43,684 nt of DNA, taken from a virus. The notes beneath the pieces were generated by a model. That model saw only the letters and a program-made list of their open reading frames with translations, did not search any database and was not told the DNA's origin. Of the stretch, positions 1,946 through 30,287 are shown one piece after another (position 1 is the first letter of the stretch; each line of letters opens with the position of its first letter). The stretch covers positions 1 through 43,684 of IMG/VR virus record IMGVR_UViG_3300045936_000038, one strand, 5' to 3'. The position numbers were made by a program, and so were the translations under genes.

Positions 1946-2111
1946 CGTTGTCGTAGTGTTCGGACCAGCCCTCGATGTCGAAGAACATGCGCCCGCAGCC
2001 GAGGCATTCAACGACCTCCGGTGGCCTATATATAGGCACCGACACGCTCATAACCTGATCGAATATATCCGCCGCATGCTGCCGCTCGCTCGCCGCCTGG
2101 TCAAGGGTCAT
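1932..2111 (-). CDS. C2HC zinc-finger protein, paralogue A
   Basis: A 59-residue product with CLGCG near residue 36, then FFDIEGWSEHYDNDVC, giving C-x2-C-x12-H-x4-C, a compact zinc finger. The N terminus MTLDQAASERQHAAD matches the paralogue at 4301-4468 almost residue for residue, with 41 of the first 45 bases identical. ATG at 2111 overlaps the stop of the NeuA-like gene (ATGA). The two paralogues flank the neuB/neuA genes in the same orientation. Confidence 0.7.
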   Translation of the reverse strand: MTLDQAASERQHAADIFDQVMSVSVPIYRPPEVVECLGCGRMFFDIEGWSEHYDNDVCA

Positions 2112-2827
2112 ATGCCCAGCCCCTTCCCCGCAGGCACCCGCGCCGCCATGATGCGCTCAGCCTCCGCGAAGTCCTCCAAGGTGTCGATGTTCACCAGTTG
2201 GTTCTCGACCCACACGTACCCGGCCCGCTTGCCCATCGTGGTTTGTTGCTCCAGTAGGCATTCGCGGGTGAACACATACGCCGCGCCATTGCGGTAATAC
2301 GTCTGCTTCAACTGCTGGCGGGCGATGATCTGGCGGCCATCCTCGAGCAAGTAGTAGAGTTCGTCACCTTGGAGTCCCAACTGTTTTAGCGGATGGTATC
2401 GCTTGTCGGTCTCGCTGATCGTCCACACCGAGTCGAAGCCGCCGTCAATGAGCCGTCGCACCGCGAGCGTAACTTGGCCCGCCGTCCTGAGCGGGCACGT
2501 CGGCTGGAGCATGACGACCACGTCATAGTATGAATCGCAGATTACCTTGATTGCGTGCGTGAGAACGTGAAGATCGCTGATAAGATCGCCGCCCAACTCC
2601 GGGGGCCGCATGAACGGCACCTCGAGCCCGCAATCCGCCGCCGCCTTAGCAATGTCCGGATGGTCGGTCGAGCAGATCGCCCGGTCGACGTATTGCAGCC
2701 GCTTGACGAGGTTGCCGGTGTGCGCAATCAGCGGAACGCCGGCGAGCGGCCTGATGTTCTTCAGCGGTACGCCCTTGCTACCCCCGCGAGCCGGGACGAC
2801 GACGAGGATGGACTTACCGTCTAGCAT
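2108..2827 (-). CDS. neuA: CMP-nonulosonic acid synthetase (NeuA-like cytidylyltransferase)
   Basis: A 239-residue nucleotidyltransferase of the acylneuraminate cytidylyltransferase family. It would activate a sialic-type nine-carbon sugar acid with CTP to give the CMP-sugar donor. Visible motifs: VVPARGGSKGVPLKNI near the N terminus (nucleotide-binding loop), GVPLIAHT, and LQPTCPLR around residue 107 (family hallmark). Length fits the family. ATG at 2827 is preferred over 2836 because GGAGGG lies nine bases before it. It directly follows the NeuB-like synthase, its pathway partner. No glycosyltransferase is adjacent, so a host enzyme would have to use the product. The exact sugar cannot be told from sequence. 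Confidence 0.88.
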   Translation of the reverse strand: MLDGKSILVVVPARGGSKGVPLKNIRPLAGVPLIAHTGNLVKRLQYVDRAICSTDHPDIAKAAADCGLEVPFMRPPELGGDLISDLHVLTHAIKVICDSYYDVVVMLQPTCPLRTAGQVTLAVRRLIDGGFDSVWTISETDKRYHPLKQLGLQGDELYYLLEDGRQIIARQQLKQTYYRNGAAYVFTRECLLEQQTTMGKRAGYVWVENQLVNIDTLEDFAEAERIMAARVPAGKGLGI

Positions 2828-4182
2828 GGCCCCCATCCCTCCACGATGGTCTTCCGCTGGTCTCTCGGGATCTTGGCGATGAGCGGATCGGTGTAGAAGG
2901 AGTCACCGTCGATGTGCGTGGTGGAGATTTCCTCCACTATGGCGCCGTCCGTAGTCCAGAAGTTGTGATATTGCATCGGGCTAATATTCACCGAATCTCC
3001 GGCACGCATTGCGCGGGGCTCTAGGCCATCAATGCTCATGAACAATCGCCCCGACAAGACATGGAACGTCTCATCTTTAACTTTGTGCGCATGGGACGGA
3101 TGGGTTTGGTCTGGCGTCATGACAATAAGCTTCTTGCAATACGCCCGGTTGACGATGGGGATGATGGTCGCGCCCACGTAAGGAAACCGCACAATCCCCT
3201 CGTGGTGGGAGAACTCCAACCTGAACTCGGGCGGCAGCGCGATCTTGGCCTCGGCCAGCATGCCGCGCACTTGGGATGCAGCGGTCGCGAGAATGCGCTG
3301 ATAGGGGTCCATCTCGCGTCGACCTGATACTGAGCGCCGAAGCCCTTGGAGCGCTTCGGTCTCGGCGTCAGTGACAATGCGCACGCCGTTAAGTTGCATT
3401 CCGCCGCATTGAAGGCGAGCCTCTTGATACTCGCCCAACCACGCCCGCACCTGATCAGCATTGGCCGAGTAGGCGTTGGGCGCATGGTTCACCAGATCCC
3501 ACCCGACGTGCTTCTCAAACATCCTCGCGCCCTTCGCCACGGCCACCGCAATGCCTGATGGAAAGCGCGGGTTCTCATGCGTCGAGAGCCCGATCACGCG
3601 CCCCGGATACCGCCGTCTGAGCACGTCGATCTGGTTCAGTTGCATGTCGACGTTGAGCGTCGGGTAGATGGACACGCAGTGCATGATGGCGAAGTCCGCG
3701 CGGCGAGATTCAAAGAACGCGACGAGCTCGTCAATCTGAGGTATCTCGAGCCCGCCAGTGGAGAAGATGACGGGTTTGCCGGCCCTCTCCACCCGCTCAA
3801 TCAAAGGCCAATCCTGGTTGGATGGGCTACCAATCTTAATGACCTCGATACCCGCGCACTCGATCCGATACACGGAATACTCATCGAACGGCGTACACAT
3901 GGTGATGAGCCCCTGCTTGCGCGTCTCGTCCACGAGTTCCTCGAATTGCTCCCACGACAACCGCGTCTCCAGAAACCGCTTGATGTGCTTTGGGTCAAGG
4001 TCGGGGTTCGCGGGAATGAACGTGTCAAGGTCTCGAAACTGGAGCTTGATCGCGGCGCGGATGCCGTAGTCCTGCGCGATCTTCGCCATCTGGAAGATGA
4101 TGCGCCGGCCGTGCTCCACGTTGCCCTGGTGGTTATTGGCGAGCTCAAACACGAACAGATCGCGGAAGTCGAAGGCCGTCAT
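2821..4182 (-). CDS. neuB: NeuB-like nonulosonic acid synthase fused to a cupin domain
   Basis: A 453-residue protein. Residues 1-250 are a NeuB (sialic acid synthase) barrel that condenses phosphoenolpyruvate with a hexose derivative: FELANNHQGN (11-20), KLQF (46-49), FSTGGLE (140-145), MHCVSIYP (167-174), GLSTHE (198-203) and FEKH (222-225). Residues about 345-430 are a cupin: HPSHAHKVKDETFHVLSG (361-378) gives H-x-H, E and H metal ligands, with H406 later. The antifreeze-like SAF domain usual in NeuB is not apparent. Start ATG overlaps the preceding stop (ATGA). PEP, the hexose precursor and downstream transferases must come from the host. Confidence 0.88.
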   Translation of the reverse strand: MTAFDFRDLFVFELANNHQGNVEHGRRIIFQMAKIAQDYGIRAAIKLQFRDLDTFIPANPDLDPKHIKRFLETRLSWEQFEELVDETRKQGLITMCTPFDEYSVYRIECAGIEVIKIGSPSNQDWPLIERVERAGKPVIFSTGGLEIPQIDELVAFFESRRADFAIMHCVSIYPTLNVDMQLNQIDVLRRRYPGRVIGLSTHENPRFPSGIAVAVAKGARMFEKHVGWDLVNHAPNAYSANADQVRAWLGEYQEARLQCGGMQLNGVRIVTDAETEALQGLRRSVSGRREMDPYQRILATAASQVRGMLAEAKIALPPEFRLEFSHHEGIVRFPYVGATIIPIVNRAYCKKLIVMTPDQTHPSHAHKVKDETFHVLSGRLFMSIDGLEPRAMRAGDSVNISPMQYHNFWTTDGAIVEEISTTHIDGDSFYTDPLIAKIPRDQRKTIVEGWGPC

Positions 4183-4301: not shown

Positions 4302-4468
4302 CATTCACACACCTCGTCGTAGTGTCGAGACCAGTCCTCGATATTGAAGAATGAGCGACCGCAACCGAGGCATGTGACGACCTCTGGCATCGCGGTCCTT
4401 AGTCGATACATTGCATCCCCCAGATCCGCCGCGTGCTGCCGCTCGCTCGCCGCTTGGTCGAGGCTCAT
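4301..4468 (-). CDS. C2HC zinc-finger protein, paralogue B
   Basis: A 55-residue protein: MSLDQAASERQHAAD at the N terminus and CLGCGRSFFNIEDWSRHYD with a final Cys, giving C-x2-C-x12-H-x4-C. Paralogous to the 1932-2111 product. The open frame extends upstream to 4750, but ATG at 4468 is chosen because it overlaps the stop of the preceding gene (ATGA) and matches the paralogue's start exactly. Confidence 0.7.
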   Translation of the reverse strand: MSLDQAASERQHAADLGDAMYRLRTAMPEVVTCLGCGRSFFNIEDWSRHYDEVCE

Positions 4469-4662
4469 GACTTCTCCCGCTCCTTCGCATACCGTTTCAG
4501 GTTGGAGAACCCGGCCCGCACGCGATAGAGGGCCGTCTCCAGCTTCGCCGCCGATACTGTAACCGAAAAGGTGATCTTCCCATCGGCCGTCTGGCTCAAC
4601 GTGGCCCGGTTGGGGAGCTCCCCGTTCATCTTGATGACCTCGATGATCTTGCGCTTGGTCAT
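4465..4662 (-). CDS. Hypothetical protein (65 aa)
   Basis: A basic protein, MTKRKIIEVIKMNGELP, with alternating beta-like and helical stretches (KITFSVTVSAAKLETAL). No family is recognised. ATG overlaps the preceding stop (ATGA) and the stop overlaps the zinc-finger gene's start (ATGA). Confidence 0.6.
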   Translation of the reverse strand: MTKRKIIEVIKMNGELPNRATLSQTADGKITFSVTVSAAKLETALYRVRAGFSNLKRYAKEREKS

Positions 4663-7211: not shown

Positions 7212-7474
7212 CCGAGACCCAGCGCGAGGCCCAGACGCGCAAGAAGCTCGGCCTGCGAGCGCCGATCTGCCGGTGCAAGCCGGTGAACCCGAAGCACAAG
7301 GACTCGTATCAATGCGTCAGTCCCGCAGAACTTGAGGCGTGGCGCGCGCGTCACCCGGACTCATTGGCGAGTCTCAGGACGCAGAAGATCCTCGCCTCGT
7401 GGGAGATCGAGTTCGGGCGTGGCGTCATCACCCTGGCCGAGTGTGACCATCTGCACAGGATCACGGGGACGTGA
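7208..7474 (+). CDS. Hypothetical protein (88 aa)
   Basis: Basic N terminus TETQREAQTRKKLGLRAPIC with three Cys (CRC and a later C) and an acidic C-terminal helix. No family is recognised. ATG overlaps the preceding stop (ATGA), and its TGA overlaps the start of the helicase gene. Confidence 0.6.
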   Translation: MTETQREAQTRKKLGLRAPICRCKPVNPKHKDSYQCVSPAELEAWRARHPDSLASLRTQKILASWEIEFGRGVITLAECDHLHRITGT

Positions 7475-8862: not shown

Positions 8863-9830
8863 CCAGCACCCTTGATGAGCGATATGCCCTATACCACGGC
8901 GACTGCTGTGAACTCATGCCCGACATGCCCGAGAACTCCGTGCATCTGTCGATCTACTCGCCGCCGTTTGCGGGCCTGTATCACTACTCATCGAGCGACC
9001 GCGACCTTTCGAACAGTAAAAACTATGAGGAATTCTTCCGGCATTACGGCTTCGTCGTGCGGGCACTCCATCGCGTCACGATGCCTGGACGCATGACGGC
9101 GGTGCATTGCATGGATGTGCCGGCGAGTAACACCGGGCGCGGCGACTACCTAGTAGACTTCCCCGGCGATATCATCCGACTCCACGAGACCGAGGGCTTC
9201 CGCTATGTGGCGCGATATAGCATATGGAAAGAGCCGCTGACGGTGCGCAATCGCACCATGACCAAGAGCCTCGCTCATAAGACCATCGTGGACGACTCGT
9301 CGCGGTGCAGCAATGCCTCGGCAGACTATCTGCTGTTGTTCCGGAAGGGTGGTGCGAACCCGGTCCCAATCGCGCACCCGCAGGGGCTTTTGGAGTACGC
9401 TGGCGAGCGTCACCCGCCCGCCGACGTGCTGTCCTATCGCGGCTGGACCGGCAATCAGATCGAGAACCGCTATTCGCACTGGATCTGGAGACAGTACGCT
9501 TCGGCGTTCTGGGATGATGTGCGGCTTGACCGCGTGCTGCCATACCGCGAAGCACGGGACTCGGAGGATGAGAAGCACGTGCATCCGCTGCAGCTTGACG
9601 TGATCGACCGATGCCTCGTGCTCTGGAGCAATCCAGACGAGACGGTATTTACGCCATTCATGGGGGTCGGCTCGGAGGTCTATGGCGCGGTGGTCGGCGG
9701 GAGGCGCGGCATCGGCGTGGAGCTCAAGGCATCATACTACCGCCAAGCCGTGAGAAATGTCGCGTATGGCGCGGCCGGATGGAAGAGCGCGCAGCCGCGA
9801 GACCTGTTTGAGACTCAGGTCGCACTGTGA
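8850..9830 (+). CDS. Beta-class DNA methyltransferase (N4-C or N6-A)
   Basis: A 326-residue amino-methyltransferase. The catalytic motif is SPPF (37-40), N-terminal to the SAM-binding motif FTPFMGVGS (267-275), which defines the beta order; the usual DPFxGSG is TPFMGVG here. HPLQLDVIDRCLVLWSNP resembles the helix preceding motif I. SPPF is more usual in N4-cytosine enzymes but does not settle the base. GTG start with GGAGG upstream. No cognate restriction gene is seen; the likely role is protection from host restriction. Confidence 0.85.
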   Translation: MAVIASTLDERYALYHGDCCELMPDMPENSVHLSIYSPPFAGLYHYSSSDRDLSNSKNYEEFFRHYGFVVRALHRVTMPGRMTAVHCMDVPASNTGRGDYLVDFPGDIIRLHETEGFRYVARYSIWKEPLTVRNRTMTKSLAHKTIVDDSSRCSNASADYLLLFRKGGANPVPIAHPQGLLEYAGERHPPADVLSYRGWTGNQIENRYSHWIWRQYASAFWDDVRLDRVLPYREARDSEDEKHVHPLQLDVIDRCLVLWSNPDETVFTPFMGVGSEVYGAVVGGRRGIGVELKASYYRQAVRNVAYGAAGWKSAQPRDLFETQVAL

Positions 9831-11850: not shown

Positions 11851-12047
11851 GTATAGCGAGTGATTGGACCATGCGGCATCGTGACGCCCTCCAAAATCAA
11901 CCCTGGTTTTACGATCAGAACAGGAAGGTCGTGGCTAAGGTGAACTCGCTTGGGCATTTGGAGTTTGTTAGTCCATGCGTTGATAGCAAGGACGCCGTGA
12001 TGTTCGCGAAATGGATCGTGGACACATTCGGTGAGGCGACCCCATGA
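11847..12047 (+). CDS. Hypothetical protein (66 aa)
   Basis: MSIASDWTMRHRDALQNQPW begins a small protein with a central beta hairpin (VVAKVNSLGHLEFV) and a C-terminal helix. No family is recognised. ATG and stop both overlap neighbours (ATGA). Confidence 0.6.
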   Translation: MSIASDWTMRHRDALQNQPWFYDQNRKVVAKVNSLGHLEFVSPCVDSKDAVMFAKWIVDTFGEATP

Positions 12048-12697
12048 TCCTCCGCGACCACGGCATCACCGTACTGCCCGATCTGATCTCGCAGGCGATG
12101 CGGGAAGGGCTGCAAGTTGAGGGGCGACATGAAATCGCCCCGGTGCGACGTCATGAGACCGAGAACGGGTGGCGAGTAAACGTCACGCCCGCGCGCGTAA
12201 CCCGCGAGAACAGATGGGACTGCTACTCCCACGCGCGCGCCTTCATCGACCTCATGCGCCCTTATGCCAATTCGTACCTGGGCCTGAAGTGGGGTATCAA
12301 TCAACTGATCTGGGACTACTCCGAGCCCACGACGAAGCCGCTATTCCCTCACCACGTGGACGACTTCAAGGGCCACAAGGCACTCAAGGCGTATGTGTAT
12401 CTGACGGACACGACGCCCGCGAACTCGCCGTTGGAGTACGCGATCGGCTCGCACATCAGCGTGGCCGCGGGGGGCTCGCACATCACCGACCGGCCGACGA
12501 ACTTCAACGGCGCGGCGGGCACGGTGATTCTGTTCGACCCGGCCGGGCTGCACGGCTCGGGGCGATTGATCCAGGGTTCGCGCTACATCTTCCGGGTGCA
12601 TTTCGTGGAGGCATCCTACGTGCGCCGCTATCTCCCCGATCAACTGCCGTGGTACCAGCGGCCGCTGGCCCGCGTGCTGGCGAAGGTGAGTCCATGA
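12044..12697 (+). CDS. Phytanoyl-CoA dioxygenase-like Fe(II)/2-oxoglutarate oxygenase
   Basis: A 217-residue double-stranded beta-helix oxygenase of the PhyH type. The iron triad is visible as H104-x-D106 (in FPHHVDDFKG) and H170 (in DPAGLHGSGR), with R180 ten residues later as the 2-oxoglutarate clamp. Between them is KALKAYVYLTDTTPANSPLE, the family's central strand pair, and an IGSH segment. Family members hydroxylate diverse small molecules and sugars. It sits between terminase and portal, coupled by ATGA overlaps, so it is made with packaging genes; its substrate is unknown. Confidence 0.8.
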   Translation: MILRDHGITVLPDLISQAMREGLQVEGRHEIAPVRRHETENGWRVNVTPARVTRENRWDCYSHARAFIDLMRPYANSYLGLKWGINQLIWDYSEPTTKPLFPHHVDDFKGHKALKAYVYLTDTTPANSPLEYAIGSHISVAAGGSHITDRPTNFNGAAGTVILFDPAGLHGSGRLIQGSRYIFRVHFVEASYVRRYLPDQLPWYQRPLARVLAKVSP

Positions 12698-17372: not shown

Positions 17373-17981
17373 ATGGCGGACCAGGAACGACTCGACCCGC
17401 GCGCGGAGATGCTCGAGAAGGCGTGGGCCACGCCCGAAGCGCGGCCCTACCTCGAGCGCGCTTTGAAGACCGCCTATCCGAACGCGGAAATCCCGGGCAT
17501 GGCGCTGCGCGAGGCGACCGAGGCAGCACGGGCCGCCGCCGCCGAGCGCGAGGCGAAGATCGACGCGAAGATCGCGAAATTCGACGCCGATCGCGACCAC
17601 GACCGCGCCGTAGCCGACCTGCATCGGCAGGGCTACAACGACGCGGACGTGAAAGAGATCGAAGACATCATGGCCAAGGAAGGCATCGGCCTTCACGTCA
17701 ACGCGGCCATCGTGTACGACAACCGCCGCAAGGTCGCCGCGCCACGCACGCCGGCCGACTATCGCGGCTCGATGAATCCCAAAGCGTATGGACGCGGCCA
17801 GCACGCCGCTTGGTTCAACGGGCTGATGGAGGGCGACTTCCATCACCCCGGCGAGGACTGGGCGCGCGCGAAGGCCGACATGATTCTGCAAGACTTTCAA
17901 AATGACCGGGCCGGGGCCGAAGCCCGCTGGGCCAATCAGGACTACTGGCCGGCTGATCCCAACTTCCCATTGAAGGCGTAA
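17373..17981 (+). CDS. Putative scaffolding or head protein (202 aa)
   Basis: Highly charged and mostly helical: ATEAARAAAAEREAKIDAKI with repeated Asp/Lys/Ala suggests a coiled coil, and the C-terminal part is WFNGLMEGDFHHPGEDWARA and similar aromatic stretches. Size, composition and position before the capsid gene are those of a scaffold, but there is no family match. Confidence 0.4.
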   Translation: MADQERLDPRAEMLEKAWATPEARPYLERALKTAYPNAEIPGMALREATEAARAAAAEREAKIDAKIAKFDADRDHDRAVADLHRQGYNDADVKEIEDIMAKEGIGLHVNAAIVYDNRRKVAAPRTPADYRGSMNPKAYGRGQHAAWFNGLMEGDFHHPGEDWARAKADMILQDFQNDRAGAEARWANQDYWPADPNFPLKA

Positions 17982-17991
17982 GGAGGCTCTG

Positions 17992-18720
17992 ATGACTGCG
18001 CGCCGCTGGATTGCCCTTGCTCTCGTCGTCGCTGCATTGGTGGCCATTGCGCCCCCGGCCAGTCACGCGCAGATCCCGATGATTGCGAACGGGATCATTC
18101 ACGCGACCTCGGCGTCCGTGAATGCGGCCAACTCGACCGCCGAAATCCTGCTGTATCAGTACCCGATTCCGGCCGCCCTGTGGGCCTCGTGGACCACGAA
18201 CAACCAGGCGTTCGCGTCCGTGCCGATCCATCTGCGCCTGAACGGCGGCATCAAGACCGTAGGCACCGTCGGCGGCATCACCGGCAACTCATTGGCCGTG
18301 AACCTCACGAGCCAGACCGGCGTGCAGATCGCCACGATGGTGATCATGAACGGCGCGACCATTCCCGCGGACCTCGGTGGCGGGGCATGCGGTGGTGCGA
18401 CCCAGGCCCCGAACGCCTGTCAGGCCCCGATCACGGTGGACGTGGTCGTCAATCCGATCGCGACACTGACCACGCAGAACGCGACCGACCTCCGGCCGCA
18501 GGTCTTCCAGGCGTTCCTGACCGGGCGCGTGGCGGTGGCCAGCACGACTCAGGGCGTCGTGAGCAACACGCTGGCGACCGAGAACGCCTACAACGCCACG
18601 ACGTTCTCGCAGGCCAATAACAATCAGACGGCCGTCCTGAACGTGGTCTGGCGGTGGGGTTCGGCCGCCTCGGGCAACTCGCTGAACATCTACAACGGCG
18701 TACTGAAACTGGGCTTCTAA
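17992..18720 (+). CDS. Virion-region protein with Sec signal peptide
   Basis: Strong Shine-Dalgarno site AAGGAGG. The N terminus has two Arg, a hydrophobic core (WIALALVVAALVAIAPP) and a cleavage site SHA-Q at about residues 25-28, a textbook Sec signal peptide. The mature part is beta-rich, Asn/Thr/Ala-rich, with one likely disulphide (CGGATQAPNAC) and ends WRWGSAASGNSLNIYNG. It sits in the head cluster, where decoration proteins are usual, yet appears built for export. Its function is unknown. Confidence 0.6.
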   Translation: MTARRWIALALVVAALVAIAPPASHAQIPMIANGIIHATSASVNAANSTAEILLYQYPIPAALWASWTTNNQAFASVPIHLRLNGGIKTVGTVGGITGNSLAVNLTSQTGVQIATMVIMNGATIPADLGGGACGGATQAPNACQAPITVDVVVNPIATLTTQNATDLRPQVFQAFLTGRVAVASTTQGVVSNTLATENAYNATTFSQANNNQTAVLNVVWRWGSAASGNSLNIYNGVLKLGF

Positions 18721-18721
18721 T

Positions 18722-19909
18722 TTGCGACGACTCTGGGTCATTCCGATCGCGGGGGCGGTGCTCGCCCCCTTGGTTACCTGGTGGCCGATGCTGGCCTTCC
18801 GGTTTCCGTGGCTGGGGCTTCCTGCGTACCCGGCCGCGCAAGGGATTGACCTATGGTCGGCGCAGACGTTCTACCTCGCGGCCTTCGGGATGATTGCCGT
18901 GCTCGTGGGCCGCGAGGATCGCTATCTCGGTCTCGCGGTGGCCCTCGCCGGGCTCACGATCTTTTTCCGGGGCGCGGCCATGGACCCGACGCATTCCGTG
19001 ATGTTCGCGCTCGGGGCCTTGATGCTGATCGCGCTTCGGCAGACGCCGAACAAGTACCACCCGAAGATCATTTCAATCCTCGTCGCCCTCGGGACATTCG
19101 AGCTCCTGTACGTGCTCCAGCAGCGATTCCTCGGCTACGACTTGCTGTGGGGGCCACTCTTCGGCGGGCAGTTACTAGTGCCGTGTACGCCTGAACTCGT
19201 TGCGGCAGGCAAGCAATGCGGCCCGATTCAGCCGCTTGGCACCATCGGCACGGTCGACGGGGCGGCGGCCTACATCGCGATCATCGCCCCGCTGATGCCG
19301 TGGTGGCTGATGCTGGTGGCCATCTTTGCGGTGGTGAAGAGCCACGCGGTGTCGGCCATTCTCGCGCTCGGCGCCGGCCTTGTGATCCGCTTCCGTCATA
19401 ACAAGCCCGTGCTGGCCGTCGTGATTGCCGGGTGCATGTTCGCCGCAATCTTTGCCGCCTACGCCAAGAGCAACAAGCCGCTGGACGCGCACATGCTCGG
19501 GCGCGGGGCCATGTGGCAGTTCGCGGTGAACGACTGGGTCAGGACTGATCCCATCGTGGGCTTCGGTCTCGGTGGCTGGTCGCAGCGCATCCCGGTCAAG
19601 CAAGTAACCACGGACTACAAGCCCACCGGAGAACTCTGGCGCGAAGCCCATAACGAATACCTGCAATGGCTCGTTGAGCTTGGCGTGATCGGCGCGATGC
19701 TCCTCGCCTTCTGGCTCTGGGCGCATCGGGCGATGTTCGCGCATCCGGTCTATGGCGGCTCGATCGCCGCACTCGGCGTCAATGCGTTGACGTTTTTCCC
19801 GATGCACGTCGTTCAACTCTCTTTGGTCGCGCTCGTCCTCGTCGGGCTGGCGACGGCCCCGATTCGTGACCCATCTTCATTCGCCCCTGAGTGGGGCCAG
19901 GAGAACTAG
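18722..19909 (+). CDS. O-antigen ligase/polymerase-like membrane protein (WaaL/Wzy_C type)
   Basis: A 395-residue polytopic membrane protein with about ten hydrophobic segments. Before the last ones is a soluble loop holding WVRTDPIVGFGLGGW (about 268-282) and AHNEYLQWLVELGVIGAMLL (about 305-324): the Gly-rich motif and H-N-x-Y-L-x-x-L-x-E-x-G signature of the WaaL/Wzy_C family. Members transfer undecaprenyl-linked glycan to lipid A core or another acceptor, or polymerise it, at the periplasmic face. Start is TTG at 18722, two bases after the preceding stop, with no clear ribosome-binding site. It stands between a signal-peptide protein and the major capsid gene. Confidence 0.78.
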   Translation: MRRLWVIPIAGAVLAPLVTWWPMLAFRFPWLGLPAYPAAQGIDLWSAQTFYLAAFGMIAVLVGREDRYLGLAVALAGLTIFFRGAAMDPTHSVMFALGALMLIALRQTPNKYHPKIISILVALGTFELLYVLQQRFLGYDLLWGPLFGGQLLVPCTPELVAAGKQCGPIQPLGTIGTVDGAAAYIAIIAPLMPWWLMLVAIFAVVKSHAVSAILALGAGLVIRFRHNKPVLAVVIAGCMFAAIFAAYAKSNKPLDAHMLGRGAMWQFAVNDWVRTDPIVGFGLGGWSQRIPVKQVTTDYKPTGELWREAHNEYLQWLVELGVIGAMLLAFWLWAHRAMFAHPVYGGSIAALGVNALTFFPMHVVQLSLVALVLVGLATAPIRDPSSFAPEWGQEN

Positions 19910-19911
19910 TC

Positions 19912-20931
19912 ATGCCTCTGATTGGAACGGGCGCAGTTCCGGGCGGTGCAATCGGGACAGAATTGACGGTCGTTACGCGCCGCGCGTTCGTCCCGAAGAT
20001 GGTCGTGCAGATCTACCGCGCGACCCCGATCCTGGCCGGATGTCTGGCGAACGCGCAGACCGCCAGCGGTGGCGTGTCCTCGGTCACGATCCCGGTCCAG
20101 GGCCTGCCGTACACCACGGCGCAGGCGACGGACTACTCGGGCGCGTTCAATCAGCCGTCGATTCAGAACGGCTCGTTTGAGTTGGACGTGAACCTCGCCG
20201 CCGTCGTCGTGCCCATCCCGTTCCCCGGTCTTGAGGGGCTCATTCAGTTGAACGCCGCCGTCGTGCCGCTGATCGAGGCGCGCATGAATGACGCCGGAAA
20301 TCAGGTGGCGGACTACTTGAGCACGCAGCTTCTGACCGGCGCGGGCGGCGGCATCAACGTCGACAGTTTCCCGCTCATGGCAGGGCTCGCCGCGACCGTC
20401 GCGGGGCAGGGCTCCTACGGCAACATCGACGGGACCACCAACACTTGGTGGCGGGCAAACGTCCGCGCGGCGGGCGCCGTCAACCCGACCCGGCAGCTGG
20501 TGCTGCGCGATATCGTCTCGGCCACCAAGGCTGCCACGGGTGAGGCCCCGAACGTGGGCGCGGCGGGGCCGGGCACGTGGGAACTCCTGAGCGAAGACTT
20601 CCTCTCGCTCGAGCAGTACATGATCACGCCGCAGCAGAGCTTCGATCAGTCCTCGCTCGGCGCGCGCGCGGGCTTCACGGCGCTCATGATCGGCGCGGTC
20701 CCGATCTATATGGACCTCGGTGTTCCGGAGGGGCAGATCTGGTACTGGAACACGCGGTACCTGTCCGCGTACATCCACGAGGCGGCGGCCTTCGCCTTCA
20801 CCGGGTTCGCCTCCACGCTGCCGAACAATCAGCTCGGCTACGTCGGCGCGCTGGTGGTGCTCATCAACTTCGTGCTCGCGAAGCGGCGCACGATCGCGGT
20901 GACGACCGGCTACAACTCGAACGCTCTGTAA
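19912..20931 (+). CDS. Major capsid protein (HK97-fold)
   Basis: A 339-residue protein. ATG at 19912 with AGGAGAA upstream is preferred over 19891. Features: an N-terminal strand region (RRAFVPKMVVQIYRATPILA), the spine-helix region PLIEARMNDAGNQVADYLSTQ, an IYMDLG/WYWNTRYL segment, and a C-terminal beta stretch QLGYVGALVVLINFVLAKRR. This order matches phage major capsid proteins of the HK97 type; position after portal and scaffold-like genes agrees. It should form the icosahedral shell. Confidence 0.75.
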   Translation: MPLIGTGAVPGGAIGTELTVVTRRAFVPKMVVQIYRATPILAGCLANAQTASGGVSSVTIPVQGLPYTTAQATDYSGAFNQPSIQNGSFELDVNLAAVVVPIPFPGLEGLIQLNAAVVPLIEARMNDAGNQVADYLSTQLLTGAGGGINVDSFPLMAGLAATVAGQGSYGNIDGTTNTWWRANVRAAGAVNPTRQLVLRDIVSATKAATGEAPNVGAAGPGTWELLSEDFLSLEQYMITPQQSFDQSSLGARAGFTALMIGAVPIYMDLGVPEGQIWYWNTRYLSAYIHEAAAFAFTGFASTLPNNQLGYVGALVVLINFVLAKRRTIAVTTGYNSNAL

Positions 20932-20950: not shown

Positions 20951-22081
20951 ATGGCGCGACACAAGGAGTCGAGTAGCGGCCTTCTGATTCTGATTTTGGG
21001 GATCGTCGTCGGCTTTGCCGCGGCGGCGTTCCTCTGTTTCTTGGGTCCCACCATCCCGGCCGACGCGCAAGGCGTCGGATTTTTCGGCACCGCCGCCACT
21101 GGCACGCGCACCTCATGCTCACAGATCACGAACCCCGTGCAGGGGCAGACGGTCTGCTTCGAGCAATCCGAAAACCTCTGGAAGCGGTGGACAGGGCTCC
21201 AGTGGGCCATGACCCCCATCAACGTCGTCGCGGGCGGTCTGCCCACGGGCGAGGTCTTGGTTCTCTATGGCGGCGACGGCTCGAACGGGCCGTTCATCGT
21301 GGCCTCCGATAGCTCGGTCCTCCTCGGCAATCAGATCACATCCGGCATGACGGCCCCCGGCGTCGGGCTCTCCAATAGCCGGTACGTGTATGGCCTGAAC
21401 TTCGGCGGCACCTCGCATATTCCGCTCATCGGCCTAAGCAACATAGACACGGTGACCATTGCGACGAGTGCGACGGCGACCACGGTCGGCGGCAAATTCT
21501 TGGTGGGCTTCGCCACGTCCAATCTCGGCAACGTGGGCCAGATTCAGATGCTCAACAACACGAGCCTGGTCGGACTCAACTTCGCCGCCGATGGCGTAAT
21601 CCCGATCGCGAGTATCAACACGAGCAACCACATCGGATTCGATCCGAATGGCACCGGCTCGACGTTCAACGGGCATGTCTTCATCGGCGCAACCACGGCC
21701 ACGAACAACAACGCCAACAACCTCGGGGCACTCACCGTGGCGACGGCGCTGAATCTCAACGCCACGCGGACGCTGTGGGTCGGCGACGACCCGCGCGGCA
21801 CGCCGCGCTGTACGGATAAGTGCGGCAACGCGCCAATCCTCAGCGGCCATAACAGTTCCATGCGTGTGACGATGGGCGCGACGGGCGTCCCGGCCTCGCC
21901 GTTCCTCGTGCTATTCAACGGCACGTGGACCTCGATCCCGTCGTGCATCGCCCAGCAGAACACCGCATCGGGTGCCACCGTCACAGTGTCGAACGCGACC
22001 ACGACCGGCGTCCAGGTCAATACGTGGATCAACCCGGCGCAGGGTAGCGTGTTCTCGATTCACTGTCACGGTGCTGGATGA
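20951..22081 (+). CDS. Virion-region protein with N-terminal membrane/signal segment
   Basis: 376 residues. A hydrophobic stretch (GLLILILGIVVGFAAAAFL, about 10-28) is followed by ADA-Q, so it is a signal peptide or anchor. The rest is beta-rich, Gly/Thr/Asn-rich, with periodic segments such as SSVLLGNQITSGM and LWVGDDPRG that resemble phage fibre or beta-helical shafts, ending in a cysteine-containing domain (SIPSCIAQQN, HCHGAG). Probably a fibre or surface protein. Confidence 0.55.
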   Translation: MARHKESSSGLLILILGIVVGFAAAAFLCFLGPTIPADAQGVGFFGTAATGTRTSCSQITNPVQGQTVCFEQSENLWKRWTGLQWAMTPINVVAGGLPTGEVLVLYGGDGSNGPFIVASDSSVLLGNQITSGMTAPGVGLSNSRYVYGLNFGGTSHIPLIGLSNIDTVTIATSATATTVGGKFLVGFATSNLGNVGQIQMLNNTSLVGLNFAADGVIPIASINTSNHIGFDPNGTGSTFNGHVFIGATTATNNNANNLGALTVATALNLNATRTLWVGDDPRGTPRCTDKCGNAPILSGHNSSMRVTMGATGVPASPFLVLFNGTWTSIPSCIAQQNTASGATVTVSNATTTGVQVNTWINPAQGSVFSIHCHGAG

Positions 22082-23700
22082 TCCTTCGTCTCTTAGTCGC
22101 CCTCCTCCTGCTGGCCCCGGCCGTCGCGCACGCGGCGATTGCCGAGGTCTCAGGGCGGAAGAATACGGGCGTCGGCAACAATGTGACCTCGGCCACATGC
22201 TCGCTCTCTGCCAATGCCTCCTCGGGCAACTTCGTCGTCGTCATGGGAGGCGTCTGGAACTCGGGTAGCGGCGTCACGTCAGTCAGCGTGTCGTCGTCTG
22301 GTGGCGGCTCCACGGGGGCCTTTTCCACGATCCTCGGCGCGACCGGCGTGTCCTATGCGGGCGGCGTCGGGAAGGCGTTTATCTCCTATGCCTCGGTCAC
22401 GGGCTCTGGCTCACTCACCTTCACGGTATCGACCGACGTAGGTTCGGGAAACTATCTCAACCTCGCGTGCGACGAGTTCTCAGGCACGGCGATTGCGCTC
22501 GACGTGAACGGTGGGGAAGCCCTGGCCTCTGCGGATAACATTGTCGACACGATCACCACGTTGACGGCGAATGACCTCATTATCGGCGTGGCCGTCATTG
22601 CTAATGGTGGGGCGACAAAAACGTTTGTCGATGGCGCTGGATATACGAACATTGCGACTGACGGATCCAGTACGACTCAAGCCTATGATGCCATGTTCCA
22701 GGTTGTGACGACGGCGACCACCTACAATGTGGACTGGTCAATACCCGGGTTTGCTTTTGACTGGTCTGCGGTCAACGCCGCGTTCAAGGAAGTAACCGGC
22801 GGTGGTGGTGGCGGCGACACGACGCCCCCGAGTACGCCGACTAATCTCGTCGCCACGGCGACGGGCAGCGATCGAGTCAGCCTTACGTGGAGTCCGTCGA
22901 CCGATAACGTGACGACCGTGCCGACCTACCGGCTCGAGCGCGCTCCGTTCTCGGGTTCATGCGGCACCTACGCCCAGATCGCTGCGCCGACGGTCACGAC
23001 CTATCTCGACACCGGCCTCGCGGCGTCCACGACGTACTGCTATCGCGTGCGGGCACAGGACGAGGCGCTCAATCTCAGCAGCTATAGCACGGCGGCATCG
23101 GCCACCACGCTTGCGTTACGGACGTTGATCCTCTACTGGAACGATAACTCCCCGAACGCCCAGAACTCGGTGAGTGAGACCGGCTTCCAGATGGAGCGAT
23201 GCACGGGCGCGGCGTGTTCGGATTTCGCCGTGCTCGCCACGCTCGGTGCGAACGTGACGACCTACACCGACACCGTCGCCCCAAACCCGATCGCGGGGTA
23301 TCGGGTGACGGCGCTGCCGGCCGGAAGCGGCTACAGCAACATCGTGTACAGCGACACGACTATTCCGCCGATCCTCCTGACCCATCCGCCACTGTTGGCC
23401 TTTTCCGCCGCGCCGGGCTTTACGCCGGTGCCGCAGTCCATCTCGATCACCAAGAACGGCGGAAGCCCCACGATGACGTGGACGGTCTCCGATGATCAGA
23501 CCTGGCTCTCGGTGTCGCCCGGGTCTGGCACGGACGATGCCATCGTGGTCGCCTCGGTGGATACGACCGGTCTGACGGCTGGCATCTATACCGCGAACAT
23601 CACGGTCACGGCGGCGGGGGCGACCGGAAGTCCGCAGACCATTCCCGTCACGCTGACGATGTCCTCGTCGGGCTCGAGCATCGGCGGGAGAGTGCGATGA
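22078..23700 (+). CDS. Secreted adhesin-like protein: FN3 and BACON-type domains
   Basis: 540 residues with a Sec signal peptide (LLVALLLLAPAVAHA then A). Residues about 20-235: beta-sandwich domain shared with the 41335-42177 product. After a Gly linker (GGGGGG) come a fibronectin type III domain (TPPSTPTNLVATATGSDRVS to about 345, ending TTYCYRVRAQDEAL) and a degenerate second one to about 425. Residues about 430-530 form a BACON-like Ig domain (WTVSDDQTWLSVSPGSGTDD, GIYTANITVTA). Carbohydrate-binding or adhesion is the usual role. ATG overlaps the previous stop (ATGA). Confidence 0.7.
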   Translation: MILRLLVALLLLAPAVAHAAIAEVSGRKNTGVGNNVTSATCSLSANASSGNFVVVMGGVWNSGSGVTSVSVSSSGGGSTGAFSTILGATGVSYAGGVGKAFISYASVTGSGSLTFTVSTDVGSGNYLNLACDEFSGTAIALDVNGGEALASADNIVDTITTLTANDLIIGVAVIANGGATKTFVDGAGYTNIATDGSSTTQAYDAMFQVVTTATTYNVDWSIPGFAFDWSAVNAAFKEVTGGGGGGDTTPPSTPTNLVATATGSDRVSLTWSPSTDNVTTVPTYRLERAPFSGSCGTYAQIAAPTVTTYLDTGLAASTTYCYRVRAQDEALNLSSYSTAASATTLALRTLILYWNDNSPNAQNSVSETGFQMERCTGAACSDFAVLATLGANVTTYTDTVAPNPIAGYRVTALPAGSGYSNIVYSDTTIPPILLTHPPLLAFSAAPGFTPVPQSISITKNGGSPTMTWTVSDDQTWLSVSPGSGTDDAIVVASVDTTGLTAGIYTANITVTAAGATGSPQTIPVTLTMSSSGSSIGGRVR

Positions 23701-25124
23701 GACGACTCCTTCTTCTGCTGGCGCTTTTGGTGATTCCTGCGCCCGCAGCGGCGGTCACCTACTACGTGCATCCGACCGGCACCAATCCAGCGTGTTCGAC
23801 CGTCGCCAGCCAGGGCGCGGGAAACCTGCTCCAGCGCAAATCGACCATTGCGGCCGGCATCGCCTGTCTGGCAAGTGGCGATACCCTCGTGATCGGGGCC
23901 GGGACGTATGTCGCGATCATCCCACCCGATACGATCCCGAACGGAACTGGGCCAGGCGGGGAAGCCCGCGAGGCGACATGGCCGGGGGCCACCGTCATCC
24001 GGGCCGAGACGCCTTGCACCAACGTGGGCGCGGCGTCAGGCCCCTACGCCACGCCATCATGCTCGACCATCATTCGTCCGACATCTGCCCTGTGCTCGGG
24101 GAATGCCGATGATGTGGTCTGGATTACCAACAATAGTCAGGCGCGGTACATCATCTTCCGGGGTTTTGAGATTGACGCGAACTCTCAGTGCGTGCAGATC
24201 GGGCGCTTCTATACCCAGAACAGCATTGCCGCCCCGGATCATATCCGCGTGCAGGACGTGTATTGGCACGATGCGCTGGCGGCAGCATCCGGCGCAGGGC
24301 TCGTCGCGGTTCACCCGTCGAGCACCACGTCAACCTACATGGAATTTCTTGACAGCACCTTTAAGAACTTCAACCTGGCCGGGAGCTTCCCTACTGGCGG
24401 CGGCAAACATTGCCTCTACTTCGGCGGGAGCGGCACCATCCGCCGTAATGTCATCGCGCAATGCTCGCCGACCGATCACAACGGCATCGGGATCACCACT
24501 CACAATGCGGCGAGCCTCGATCTGGACATCAGCGGCAATGACATATGGGGCTGGGGGTTCGGCGGGGTGGCGGCGGCGGGAGTCACGAACTCCGAGATTT
24601 ACAACAACATCATCCACGATGGCGGCACCACGACCAGCTATTGCAGCAGCGGGTGTGGGGCCATTCTCGTGAATAGCTGCGGTGGTGGCGGTGGGGCGAG
24701 TCCTGTGAATACGCTCATCGCCAACAACACAGTGTATGGATCACTGAATTTCACTGGTCAAAGCAGCGGCATTGTCTTCCTGTGCAGTGGTTCTACAGGC
24801 ACGACTATTCAGAACAACATCATGTTCGGCGGCACCAACGACACGATTTCGGGTAGTGACAGCGGCACCATCAGCAACAACCGTTGCGCGAGCGGGTGCA
24901 CGACCGTCGACAACCCGCAGTTTGTCAACGCGGCGGGGGGTGATTTTCACCTCACCATTTCCTCTCCGACGGCGATCACGCAGGGCGGGGTCAATCAGTC
25001 GGCGCGTTACACGACCGACAAGGATGGCGTGGCGTGGGGCTCCACGTATAGCCTCGGGGCCTACAAGTTCCCCGTGCCGTCCAGCGCTCCCGCTGCACCC
25101 ACTAACTTGAGGTTTACGCCATGA
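23697..25124 (+). CDS. Secreted right-handed beta-helix protein (tailspike/lyase-like)
   Basis: 475 residues. Signal peptide MRRLLLLLALLVIPAPAAA, then YYVHPTGTNPAC, the usual opening of parallel beta-helix carbohydrate enzymes (DUF1565/pectate-lyase-like). Repeated short strands with Asn ladders follow: IRRNVIAQCS, LDISGNDIWG, SEIYNNIIHDGG, IANNTVYGS, TIQNNIMFGG. A depolymerase or glycan-binding spike is likely. Catalytic residues cannot be assigned. The Cys content is high, consistent with an oxidising compartment. Confidence 0.7.
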   Translation: MRRLLLLLALLVIPAPAAAVTYYVHPTGTNPACSTVASQGAGNLLQRKSTIAAGIACLASGDTLVIGAGTYVAIIPPDTIPNGTGPGGEAREATWPGATVIRAETPCTNVGAASGPYATPSCSTIIRPTSALCSGNADDVVWITNNSQARYIIFRGFEIDANSQCVQIGRFYTQNSIAAPDHIRVQDVYWHDALAAASGAGLVAVHPSSTTSTYMEFLDSTFKNFNLAGSFPTGGGKHCLYFGGSGTIRRNVIAQCSPTDHNGIGITTHNAASLDLDISGNDIWGWGFGGVAAAGVTNSEIYNNIIHDGGTTTSYCSSGCGAILVNSCGGGGGASPVNTLIANNTVYGSLNFTGQSSGIVFLCSGSTGTTIQNNIMFGGTNDTISGSDSGTISNNRCASGCTTVDNPQFVNAAGGDFHLTISSPTAITQGGVNQSARYTTDKDGVAWGSTYSLGAYKFPVPSSAPAAPTNLRFTP

Positions 25125-26068
25125 AGCGACTGCTGGCCGTTCTCGCGATGCTTGCGCTGCCCAGCAGCGCGTTTGCCATCGACACCAACGTCATGCCCGA
25201 GGCGGCCTATGTGAAGGGCGCGACCAGCGTCATTCATCTGATCTTCATCAAAGACGACACGACGGGCCTCGGCAAGACGGGACTGACGAGTGGATCGTCG
25301 GGGCTCACGATCGCCTACGGGCGGGCGGACCAGGGCAACGCCGCGGCCTCAACCTGCACGGTGGCCGCCGCAACGCGAGGATCCTACACGTCCTGTGGGT
25401 TCGTCGAGAAAGACTCCACGAACCTTGCGGGCTGGTACGAGTTCGGCCTTACCACGGCGATGCTCGCCACGGGCGCGGATTACGTCACGGTGTCGGTCTA
25501 TGGTGTGTCGGGCATGGTGCCGACCGTGCTTCCGATCGCCCTCGTGGACTTCGGGCTTGCGGCGGTCTACAACCGGCTCGGAGCTCCCGCCGGCGCGAGC
25601 ATGAGTGCCGATACGGCGGCCGTGCAGACCTCGGCCACAGCGATCAAGGCGAAGACGGATTCACTGACGTTCACGGGGGCAAATGTCGGCTCCATCGTCA
25701 ACACCTACGCCAGCGGCCAGGCCCCGGTGCTTCCGACGGTGGCCGGGCGCACGCTGGACGTGGCCGCAACTGGAATTGTCACGGCGGGCTCATCGTGGCG
25801 GCGAAACGTGGCAGGACAGGCAAAGTTTGCCCTCTTCATGCGCGACTCTACCTCGCCCTCGACGCCAAAGACCGGGCTGACGCTCACGGTCCAGGTGTGG
25901 AAGGACACCGGGTCCTTTAGTAGCGCGACGGGCACGGCCGAAGAGATTGGCAACGGCTGGTATGCCTTCTCCCCGTCGCAGGCTGATACGAATTGCGCTC
26001 TCTGCATTTTCAGCGTGACCGCGACGGGCGCCGTCCCGACCGGGTACACGATCAATACCGCGCCATGA
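25121..26068 (+). CDS. Secreted fibre-like protein with duplicated domain
   Basis: 315 residues. Signal peptide MKRLLAVLAMLALPSSAFA. Two related beta domains: the first HLIFIKDDTTGLGKTGLTSG to WYEFGLTTAML (about 35-145), the second FALFMRDSTSPSTPKTGLTL to GWYAFSPSQ (about 235-310), joined by a helical linker with LDVAATG. The I/F-x-D...P/G-K-T-G-L pattern is seen in phage tail-fibre and neck-appendage proteins. Coupled to both neighbours by ATGA. Confidence 0.55.
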   Translation: MKRLLAVLAMLALPSSAFAIDTNVMPEAAYVKGATSVIHLIFIKDDTTGLGKTGLTSGSSGLTIAYGRADQGNAAASTCTVAAATRGSYTSCGFVEKDSTNLAGWYEFGLTTAMLATGADYVTVSVYGVSGMVPTVLPIALVDFGLAAVYNRLGAPAGASMSADTAAVQTSATAIKAKTDSLTFTGANVGSIVNTYASGQAPVLPTVAGRTLDVAATGIVTAGSSWRRNVAGQAKFALFMRDSTSPSTPKTGLTLTVQVWKDTGSFSSATGTAEEIGNGWYAFSPSQADTNCALCIFSVTATGAVPTGYTINTAP

Positions 26069-27589: not shown

Positions 27590-29166
27590 GACTGCCCTCC
27601 CCGGACCTCATCGGCGCAGGCCAGCCGAACGGCAAGCGGCCGCCGCCGCCGTCCAAGCGGAAGACGGCCGAGTTCCGGCGCTGGACCGGCGTCAACCTCA
27701 CCGATGCGCGCACGGACATCGAGGACACCGAACTCTTCTGGTTGGAGAACGGTATCAGCATCGGCAAGGGCGTTGTTCAGTTTTTGAACGCTCCGGGTTC
27801 GGCCGTCGCCACCATCCCCGAGGGCATCGCGTCGATGTGGGGCTTCACGCTCAACAACGTGCCGGTGGTCATCGTGGTGGGCCTCAACGGATCGCTGACG
27901 CAAGTGGCGATTCCAGGCGGCGCGGCCACGATCATCGGCGGCGCGGCTACCGTGACGCCCTCGGCTCACCTCACCATCTGGCAGGGCTCCACGGTGCTGA
28001 TCGTCGACCCGACGGCGGGCTATTCCTCGTGGGACGGGACCACGTACACGGTCATCGACGCCGCGATGGTCGGCACCTCGATTGCCGTGTTTGAGGGGAG
28101 CGTCTGGATCGGCAACAACCGCACGATCACCTTTACCGCGCCGGCCTCATTCAGCGACTTCACCGTGGCCTCGGGCGCGGGCGCGACGACCATCACCGAC
28201 GAGGCGTTCATCGGCACGATCACCTTCATGCTATCGTCCGTCGAACAGTTGTGGATTGTCGGCCCGGCGTCGGTGAACACCATCTCAAACGTGGTGGCCT
28301 CGGGCTCGGGGCCCGTGGTGCGGACCTTTGCCATCACCAACGTCGTGCCCTCGGTGGGCTCGGTCGGCCCGTCCTCAGGCGCAGCCTACTTCCGGGCTGT
28401 CACGTTTATGTCGCCGGGCGGGATCTATGCCATCTCGGGCGTCACGCCGCAGAAACTCAGTGCCAGCATCGACCGGATGTTTCCGGGGCTCACGCTGACG
28501 CCCGATACGCCTGCTGCCGTGGCGCTGGTGCAGAACCTCTATTGCCTGCTCTTCCTCGTGAAGTACACGCAGGCGCTCGTGACGGGCCTGCCGATGCCCG
28601 CGAACGATCTGGCGACCGAGACGCCGCTGATCCTCGGGTTCACGCAGGGCAAGATGTTCTTTGCCTCGCAAGGCGAGACGCTAAAATGGATGACCACGGT
28701 TATCGTCAACGGGGTCAGCCAGGTGTGGGGCGCGAACACGGCCGGGGAGATTTACCAACTCTTCGGCGCGGAGAATGACCAGCCCGTGCGCTACAAGGTC
28801 GTCGGCAAACTCTCGGGGTTTGGCAAGCCGACCAGTATGCACGCCCTCTACAAGATCGGCGTCGAGGTCCAGTCGGCTTATCCGATCGCGCCCACGCTCA
28901 CGGTGGACTCGGACATCGGGATCAAGGCGTTTAATCTCGCGCCAAACGTGACGCTCAATCTCCGAAACAACCTCAACCAGCTCTTGCGGCTGGTGAACTC
29001 CTCGAATCAGACGCTCGTGCTGCAGGGTCAGGGGCTCGCGCTGCCGAAACAGGATGCCGCGATGTTCGGGCATTATTTGGGCTGGATCTATCAGGGGAAT
29101 GACCCGCCACATCGGCTCCAAGCCGTGCAGATGGAATATGCAGAGACAAGGGAGTGGAACGCATGA
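27586..29166 (+). CDS. Tail hub / DNA stabilisation protein (P22 gp10-like)
   Basis: 526 residues, beta-rich throughout. RRWTGVNLTDARTDIEDTEL then FWLENGISIGKGVVQFLNAP is the opening pattern of podoviral hub proteins such as P22 gp10. A repeated-blade body follows (NGSLTQVAIPGGAATIIGG, SVWIGNNRTITFTAP, GEIYQLFG) and a C-terminal LQAVQMEYAET. It would close the portal channel and carry the fibres. Coupled to both neighbours. Confidence 0.6.
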   Translation: MRLPSPDLIGAGQPNGKRPPPPSKRKTAEFRRWTGVNLTDARTDIEDTELFWLENGISIGKGVVQFLNAPGSAVATIPEGIASMWGFTLNNVPVVIVVGLNGSLTQVAIPGGAATIIGGAATVTPSAHLTIWQGSTVLIVDPTAGYSSWDGTTYTVIDAAMVGTSIAVFEGSVWIGNNRTITFTAPASFSDFTVASGAGATTITDEAFIGTITFMLSSVEQLWIVGPASVNTISNVVASGSGPVVRTFAITNVVPSVGSVGPSSGAAYFRAVTFMSPGGIYAISGVTPQKLSASIDRMFPGLTLTPDTPAAVALVQNLYCLLFLVKYTQALVTGLPMPANDLATETPLILGFTQGKMFFASQGETLKWMTTVIVNGVSQVWGANTAGEIYQLFGAENDQPVRYKVVGKLSGFGKPTSMHALYKIGVEVQSAYPIAPTLTVDSDIGIKAFNLAPNVTLNLRNNLNQLLRLVNSSNQTLVLQGQGLALPKQDAAMFGHYLGWIYQGNDPPHRLQAVQMEYAETREWNA

Positions 29167-30287
29167 GTCTATGGGGGGGTGGTCGCCATACCCACGGAAC
29201 CGTGGACGGTTCAACGAAGCCCAGGCCTCGCTTCTTCGGGGCCTGGGCTTGGATTCTCGGCGCAATCCTCGTACCGGCCATCGTCTACGCCACCGGCACG
29301 TTGACCGTGCCGAACAACATTTTCACGCAGGCGGGCGGTACGAACGTCGCGCCCCTGCTGGACGCGAACTACACCGCGATCAAGAACTACGTCAACACCC
29401 GCGAGGTCACGGTGGGCCTCTTGGCCTCACGTCCGGCCGCGGGCACGCAGGGGCGCTGGTACCTCGCCACCGATCAGGGCGGCGGCACCACCTACGTCGA
29501 CTCGGGCACGGCATGGGTCCAGACGGGCGCGGGCGTGTCGACCACACTCGCCAATCAGCGGGCGTCGATGACGCTCTCCAACAACGGGACGGCCACGTCG
29601 ACCTTCCTGGTGTTCCCCGGCGCGGTCTCGAGCGATGACCTCCTCGTCAATGACAAGGTGCTTATCTCTAACACGTCCACCAAGACTAAAACGCTGGCAG
29701 CGTGGGCGGTTGGCAATAATACCGGGTGCCTCGACACGGGCACGGTCGCTGCGTTTACGTTCTATCACGTCTACGTCATCACACGAGTCGATACGGGTGT
29801 GGTGGATATCCTGTGCTCGGTCTCGGGGCCAGCGTCCACGACGCAGCCGACGATGCCGACGAACTACACCAAGAAGCAACGGCTGGGCGCGATCCGCACG
29901 ACGTGGTTCGGAACACCGGGTGCGGAGATTTACCCGTTCACGCAGATCGGGCGCACCTTCCGGTGGGCGACGGTAAGCACTACGCTGGACGTGAACAACG
30001 CTACGCCGGGAACGAACGCGGTAGCGGCGACCCTGTCGGTACCGAACGGCGTGTTCGTCGAGGCGTTGCTGAATTGCGTCACCGCGAACACCGGCCAGAT
30101 TTATGCCACCCCGCTGTTCGCATCCGATGAAGCCCCGGCGGGGCCGATCTCCTGTTCCGCGTTCACGGCGAGCCAAGGCAATGACGTGGTGATCATCCCG
30201 AACGCGACGGCCACGTTCCGCTATCGCAACGCGGCGAACGTGTCGACCCAGTTTCGCACGCTCGGCTGGAAGGAGTTGTGGGACTGA
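29163..30287 (+). CDS. Tail-fibre-like protein with signal anchor
   Basis: 374 residues from ATG at 29163, which overlaps the preceding stop. A hydrophobic segment (WAWILGAILVPAIVYA, about 28-43) ends in VYA-T, a possible cleavage site. It is followed by TLTVPNNIFTQAGGTNVAPL then LDANYTAIKNYVNTR, the pattern found near the N terminus of many phage fibre proteins, and a beta-rich C terminus with two Cys pairs. Likely a virion fibre or appendage. Confidence 0.55.
   Translation: MSLWGGGRHTHGTVDGSTKPRPRFFGAWAWILGAILVPAIVYATGTLTVPNNIFTQAGGTNVAPLLDANYTAIKNYVNTREVTVGLLASRPAAGTQGRWYLATDQGGGTTYVDSGTAWVQTGAGVSTTLANQRASMTLSNNGTATSTFLVFPGAVSSDDLLVNDKVLISNTSTKTKTLAAWAVGNNTGCLDTGTVAAFTFYHVYVITRVDTGVVDILCSVSGPASTTQPTMPTNYTKKQRLGAIRTTWFGTPGAEIYPFTQIGRTFRWATVSTTLDVNNATPGTNAVAATLSVPNGVFVEALLNCVTANTGQIYATPLFASDEAPAGPISCSAFTASQGNDVVIIPNATATFRYRNAANVSTQFRTLGWKELWD

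Follow-up and report, generated by a model that had tools for sequence, protein, structure and literature searches.

Why should a phage carry the gene for an O-antigen ligase-like membrane enzyme directly in front of its major capsid gene, among the genes that build the head? The question is raised by an uncultured phage DNA of 43,684 nt (the whole stretch analysed here, called the window), and we address it through the family and active site of the enzyme, its gene neighbours and its recurrence in other phages.

A WaaL-type enzyme gene within the head cluster

The initial annotation had read the gene as an O-antigen ligase or polymerase of the WaaL/Wzy_C type, lying immediately before the major capsid gene in a phage without an integrase, and this description is borne out. 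Residues 197–328 of the protein match Wzy_C (PF04932) with an E-value of 9.2e-12 and 45.4 bits, above the curated Pfam cut-off of 31.7. The other Pfam match listed is Syndecan at E 0.24, which leaves Wzy_C as the one meaningful assignment, and a PHROG search returned no match below E 0.18. The transporter match that would have spoken against this family did not appear, and a transporter or other polytopic family was rejected on the grounds that Pfam gives Wzy_C only and the top structure is WaaL. A single base separates the start of the enzyme gene from the stop of the preceding ORF, and the ATG of the capsid gene lies 2 bp past the enzyme stop, with an AGGAGA box within the last enzyme codons. 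The major capsid protein shares 50% identity with that of MW202753. No integrase (PF00589/PF00239) was detected in the window and five relatives (6/6 records, which may be incomplete). Between the window and its nearest relative (L002), the enzyme has a dN of 0.284 and a dS of 1.27 (dN/dS about 0.22), and the gene is under purifying selection; the corresponding values for the capsid protein are 0.115 and 0.679. Elsewhere in the window, a weakly PhyH dioxygenase-like gene (12044–12697) stands between terminase and portal and has a homologue elsewhere on the contig of L002, and the segment just before the terminase-like gene (7471–9830) holds a helicase-like gene and then an N6/N4 DNA methylase.

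Table 1 Features of the window, and the contigs that carry relatives of its enzyme
Feature	Position	Strand	Remarks
CMP-nonulosonate synthetase-like cytidylyltransferase	2108..2836	-	PF02348 E 3.2e-15
NeuB-family nonulosonate synthase–cupin fusion	2821..4182	-	PF03102 E 2.8e-37; Cupin_2 E 5.5e-09
Scaffold-like gene	17373..17981	+	just 5' of the partner–enzyme pair; label from position and composition
Partner: signal-peptide-like N-terminus, then beta-sandwich	17992..18720	+	242 aa; 1 bp before enzyme start
Wzy_C/WaaL-fold membrane glycan transferase	18722..19909	+	open ORF, 395 aa, TTG start
Major capsid protein	19912..20931	+	ORF listed from 19891, ATG at 19912; phrog_9953 E 1.9e-26
Protein with hydrophobic signal-like N-terminus	20951..22081	+	
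Signal-peptide-like protein with fn3 and BACON-like domains	22078..23700	+	fn3 E 8.2e-07; BACON_2 E 5.1e-05
Signal-peptide-like protein, weak beta-helix	23697..25124	+	Beta_helix E 0.0084
Signal-peptide-like protein, no family	25121..26068	+	Pfam search
Fibre-like protein, hydrophobic signal-like segment before conserved core	29154..30287	+	tail fiber phrog_19294 E 3.9e-05
Enzyme relatives in IMG/VR			L002–L004, L086 (contig of L010), L011, L087 (L008), L088, L089 (L009)
Further enzyme relatives in IMG/VR			L090–L094, L095, L167

Fold and active site

An AlphaFold2 model of the enzyme built from 10 sequences (pLDDT 67.5, pTM 0.70) agrees best, among the top-ranked Foldseek chains, with WaaL (7tpg_B; Z 12.1, rmsd 4.5 over 269 aligned residues), followed by FtsW (Z 9.9), RodA (8.1–8.8) and then structures at 5.8 and below. 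Z values of this size can be reached by helical bundles, as the comparison tool itself cautions; we find the match to WaaL credible because of the gap in Z to unrelated structures and because it agrees with Pfam. Foldseek with the enzyme model returned nothing at E ≤ 0.001, a profile of the enzyme family matched none of the sequences of solved structures, and comparing profiles with E. coli WaaL by itself, a single and diverse sequence, gave nothing useful.

The catalytic Arg/His pair that had been anticipated for this protein is found in R261 and H310, which align with R288 and H338 of E. coli WaaL. Together with E312, G321 and G324 they are identical in all 29 sequences of an alignment comprising 10 phage enzymes, 18 bacterial enzymes and E. 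coli WaaL, and in a second set that includes distant phage enzymes H310 is kept in 22/22 and R261 in 21/22, L170 having a T in that alignment. R288 and H338 are named in PMC3643930 as residues that matter for WaaL and are retained in PglL. Arg215 of WaaL has no clear counterpart: E. coli residues 213–216 fall opposite residues 208–211 of the window protein, where there is no arginine and the alignment is locally unsure. Since the PglL_A motif (PF15864) is absent at E ≤ 1 from 10/10 phage enzymes, we do not file the enzyme as a PglL. Nor do we file it as a WaaL ligase in function; its likeness to WaaL is one of family, fold and an aligned Arg/His pair.

The enzyme is paired with an exported-looking protein

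Searching IMG/VR with the enzyme sequence and with alignments of its family recovered full-length relatives 5' of the capsid gene in 16 other contigs, a recurrence beyond chance; they represent 10 further distinct sequences of 40–65% identity (11 with the window). One of them, L096, came from a genome scan and belongs to a Chloroflexi MAG, where it sits on a contig of 38 kb; the PF04932 matches listed for that MAG fall on other contigs. PF04932 is above cut-off in 14/14 virus records of relatives, and hmmscan matches it in 8/10 of the aligned phage enzymes. We encountered no case of absence combined with misassembly, and misassembly as the source of the gene was rejected, as the gene order is repeated in independent contigs.

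The feature that the initial annotation overlooked is the gene directly upstream. In the window its product is modelled as a helix (residues 4–18) followed almost only by strands (pLDDT 73), and a fold comparison was uninformative, returning only general beta-sandwich, lectin and VP2-like matches with Z of about 8 or less. Between the window and L002 its dN is 0.296 and its dS 0.975 (dN/dS about 0.30). At 10/10 distinct close loci the gene directly 5' of the enzyme encodes 196–268 residues with a hydrophobic, signal-peptide-like N-terminus, and the ends of the two genes are mostly −25 to 13 bp apart. At L089 a second copy of the partner stands between the enzyme and the capsid gene. An HMM of the partner matches, among loci with related capsid genes, only those that bear the enzyme.

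Forty-nine capsid-relative loci with more than 3 kb of upstream sequence have neither enzyme nor partner, a count from which 25 loci with less upstream sequence were set aside. In a capsid tree of 59 rows, a single clade with full support holds 48 of these 49; the remaining one, L012, has an ORF in the scaffold-like place and its capsid gene about 120 bases further on, with no pair between. The presence/absence label needs at least two changes on this tree, which suggests that enzyme and partner are gained or lost as a unit, a few times.

Recurrence beside unrelated capsid genes

A scan with the 10-member alignment also returned distant Wzy_C genes in other phages, for which we inspected 12 new loci, and scans with L171, L175 and L177 added L182–L185 and L187. 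The capsid families beside these distant enzymes include phrog_9953 (L171, L173), phrog_3437 (L177), phrog_133/phrog_4523 (L170) and SU10_MCP (L187), and a signal-peptide-like protein of 151–185 residues lies directly 5' of the enzyme at L170, L171, L173, L175, L177, L179, L182, L184 and L185. The enzyme–partner pair thus recurs beside unrelated capsid genes. The partners of L171, L175, L182, L184 and L185 resemble capsid cement (PF09956, E 1e-4 to 0.034, below the curated cut-off), and that of L171 also head decoration phrog_122 (E 7e-4); the partners of L170, L173, L177 and L179 have no cement match in Pfam. These weak likenesses to cement and head-decoration proteins are leads and not assignments. 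When the enzymes of the window, L170, L171, L175 and L177 were searched by tblastn against 50,697 GenBank phage records, no match was returned.

Of the 21 distinct Wzy_C loci, a fixed rule finds an exported-type N-terminus directly 5' of the enzyme at 18. The number rises to 20/21 with L087 and L088, which fail the rule and are counted because they are orthologues of L096 and share its type of N-terminus. The exception is L187, where the small ORF directly 5' lacks a signal-like N-terminus, signal-like ORFs lie on both sides and the enzyme itself appears as two ORFs. In this count the near-copies L169, L178 and L183 were counted once, and L172, L174 and L176, with no readable upstream gene, were left out. 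Signal peptides were called throughout by a home-made rule, and export is a prediction. On the contig of L172, a protein with a signal-peptide-like N-terminus (3299–4582) is seen further downstream.

Signal-like proteins are concentrated around the capsid gene at enzyme-bearing loci

The partner is not the only exported-looking protein in the neighbourhood. In an interval that begins 4 kb before the capsid gene and ends 8 kb after it, we counted signal-like ORFs of at least 100 aa by a home-made rule and found 29 in 101.8 kb at enzyme-bearing loci (n = 10; one of the 29 is the enzyme of L090 itself) versus 4 in 325 kb at enzyme-lacking loci (n = 35, distinct capsid sequences), a density about 20 times higher with the enzyme than without it. 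Any such ORF is present at 10/10 of the former and 3/35 of the latter, and a stricter count of signal-like genes gives 15/90 versus 1/232. As the contrast is nearly one clade against its sisters, the statistic has few independent points.

The signal-like proteins of the window downstream of the capsid gene are given in Table 1. Among 9 distinct homologues of the fibre-like protein, a hydrophobic segment precedes the conserved core in 6, two have the core as their start and the last has a different N-terminus. In the window, Ser/Thr make up 18–30% of the mature parts of the signal-bearing proteins, a content that is also usual for fibres. A separate observation concerns the major capsid ORFs of L087 (9150–9350), L088 (9714–10862), L095 (9367–10503) and L096 (9681–10868), which have an in-frame N-terminal extension that is signal-peptide-like and/or transmembrane and starts at an ATG behind a Shine–Dalgarno-like box.

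Sugar genes are an optional addition

The window also carries a NeuB-family synthase and a cytidylyltransferase, the latter closest to the PseF model TIGR03584 (E 1.1e-34, below cut-off). Both genes are found on the contig of L002, NeuB on that of L003, and on the contig of L090 NeuB and a cytidylyltransferase are joined by genes for an aminotransferase, an epimerase, an oxidoreductase and a formyltransferase and by a second Wzy_C gene. Three relatives for which 37.6–41.5 kb of sequence is at hand lack both NeuB and the cytidylyltransferase. We considered the sugar cluster as a part of the cassette and rejected this, since among virus records it was found only in the window, L002/L003 and L090; nonulosonate synthesis thus appears to be an optional addition and not core. 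A distant NeuB match is present in 3 of the 50,697 GenBank phage records. The conserved gene order on the contig of L090 fits a circularly permuted genome; a search of neighbouring contigs for the wraparound gave no match to its start. On contig G009 (L141, 12874–18759; L142, 623–5037 on the minus strand), a larger group of sugar genes that includes a second Wzy_C gene was noted inside an apparently circularly permuted phage genome.

A proposed role in glycosylation of exported virion proteins

Members of this family act on undecaprenyl-linked glycans at the outer face of the inner membrane, as is established for WaaL and PglL. With a probability that we put just short of even, we propose that the enzyme works in the periplasm, transferring glycan to virion-type proteins exported through Sec, much as PglL and PilO modify pilins. 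It would be a WaaL/PglL-type integral membrane protein whose active site faces the periplasm, forming a two-gene cassette with its upstream partner. During the late phase of infection, Sec would export the partner together with further virion-type proteins that bear signal peptides; the enzyme would move a lipid-linked glycan, either the host's own or one altered by the phage NeuB/NeuA, onto them; and the glycosylated proteins would join or coat particles at or after lysis. We infer the export, the role of the partner as acceptor, its presence on virions and the choice of glycan. Precedent for reading gene order in this way comes from PMC3643930, in which protein O-oligosaccharyltransferases and their acceptors were recognised by such pairing: pglL adjoins the gene for a pilin acceptor in 21/31 cases, and P. 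aeruginosa pilO, which lacks PglL motifs, also adjoins pilin.

Of the three functions that the initial annotation had offered, glycosylation of exported virion proteins is the one we favour, because an exported-looking partner lies directly upstream and many signal-peptide-like proteins stand among the structural genes. Its interpretation is thereby supported in part: the family, the position among the capsid genes and the failure to detect an integrase are upheld, and the exported-looking partner is added. Several points count against our reading: the absent PglL_A motif, the pLDDT of the enzyme model, the want of a significant Foldseek match, the few independent points behind the export statistic, the home-made signal-peptide rule and the distant partners without a cement match. 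Moreover, heads are assembled and filled with DNA in the cytoplasm, and proteins of the coat that had been exported would have to be added late, an unusual order of events. We hold more loosely, as a generalisation with distinctly less probability behind it, that in several phage groups cement and adhesin-like proteins are Sec-exported, glycosylated by an adjacent WaaL-type transferase and added to the particle coat at lysis.

The enzyme could instead act on the host surface, as a lipopolysaccharide or exopolysaccharide ligase or polymerase whose late change would block the entry of other phages or stop progeny from rebinding debris, with the exported partner as an auxiliary surface protein. 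We regard this as possible though doubtful. The fold is that of WaaL, the Wzy-beta proteins of D3 and epsilon15 act on host O-antigen (PMC4815439), and nonulosonate genes occur in the window and two relatives, with the larger cluster and second Wzy_C gene on the contig of L090. Those converters, however, are lysogenic genes, and no integrase was found in the 6/6 records, which may be incomplete; this gene lies among head genes, and the three relatives of 37.6–41.5 kb do without NeuB and the cytidylyltransferase. What leads us to favour protein glycosylation over remodelling of the host surface is that the gene is almost always paired with one for an exported-looking protein, in some cases a cement-like one, and not with glycosyltransferases.

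The tight pairing, with gene ends mostly within −25 to 13 bp, would also be expected if the partner were exported only to serve the enzyme, as its chaperone, as an anchor or by regulating length (compare Wzz for Wzy), and were neither an acceptor nor a virion protein. This seems improbable to us, as the partners vary widely by lineage, several being cement- or decoration-like, where one fold would be expected of a regulator, and as L089 has an extra copy. We think it very improbable that the protein is a SEDS-type (FtsW/RodA-like) enzyme of the cell wall with peptidoglycan precursors as substrates: FtsW and RodA are indeed the next structural matches (Z 8.1–9.9), but WaaL scores higher and the sequence is that of a Wzy_C protein with the WaaL Arg/His pair.

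Relation to known systems

The enzyme shares with the WaaL ligases (PF04932; 7tpg) its fold (Z 12.1), length, Wzy_C domain and equivalents of Arg288 and His338, and it differs from them in lying in a phage head operon beside an exported-looking partner, with no lipid-A-core genes seen nearby and Arg215 not clearly conserved. With PglL and PilO it has in common Wzy_C, the Arg/His pair and a gene that stands away from lipopolysaccharide loci and next to that of an exported candidate acceptor; unlike PglL it has no PglL_A motif (nor does PilO; PMC3643930), and unlike both it is phage-encoded and its partner is a beta protein and not a pilin. The Wzy-beta proteins of the seroconverting phages D3 and epsilon15 are likewise phage-encoded membrane enzymes for O-glycans, that of epsilon15 with Wzy_C (PMC4815439), but they are lysogenic conversion genes, in contrast to a head-cluster gene with no integrase detected. 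Halomonas phage YPHTV-1 has a gene annotated 'O antigen ligase'; however, an integrase is present, the ligase is ORF43 and the capsid ORF31, and the available part of the description reports no partner (PMC10305713).

The literature searched gave no example of a head-cluster Wzy_C gene that adjoins genes for exported, cement-like proteins across several phage groups. Mycobacteriophage particles are said (Freeman, 2023, cited in PMC10955285) to carry glycans, reportedly added by cytosolic glycosyltransferases, unlike the arrangement proposed here of a membrane transferase whose acceptors are exported through Sec. Seroconverting phages are an established source of phage Wzy_C enzymes. The loci with the pair form a compact set of candidate glycan transferases, each beside a candidate acceptor. 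If our proposal is correct, phage particles would consist partly of secreted, glycosylated proteins, by a route that we did not find in the literature searched; virions would wear the host's own surface glycan or one edited by the phage, and phages could disguise or re-target their virions with host surface sugars.
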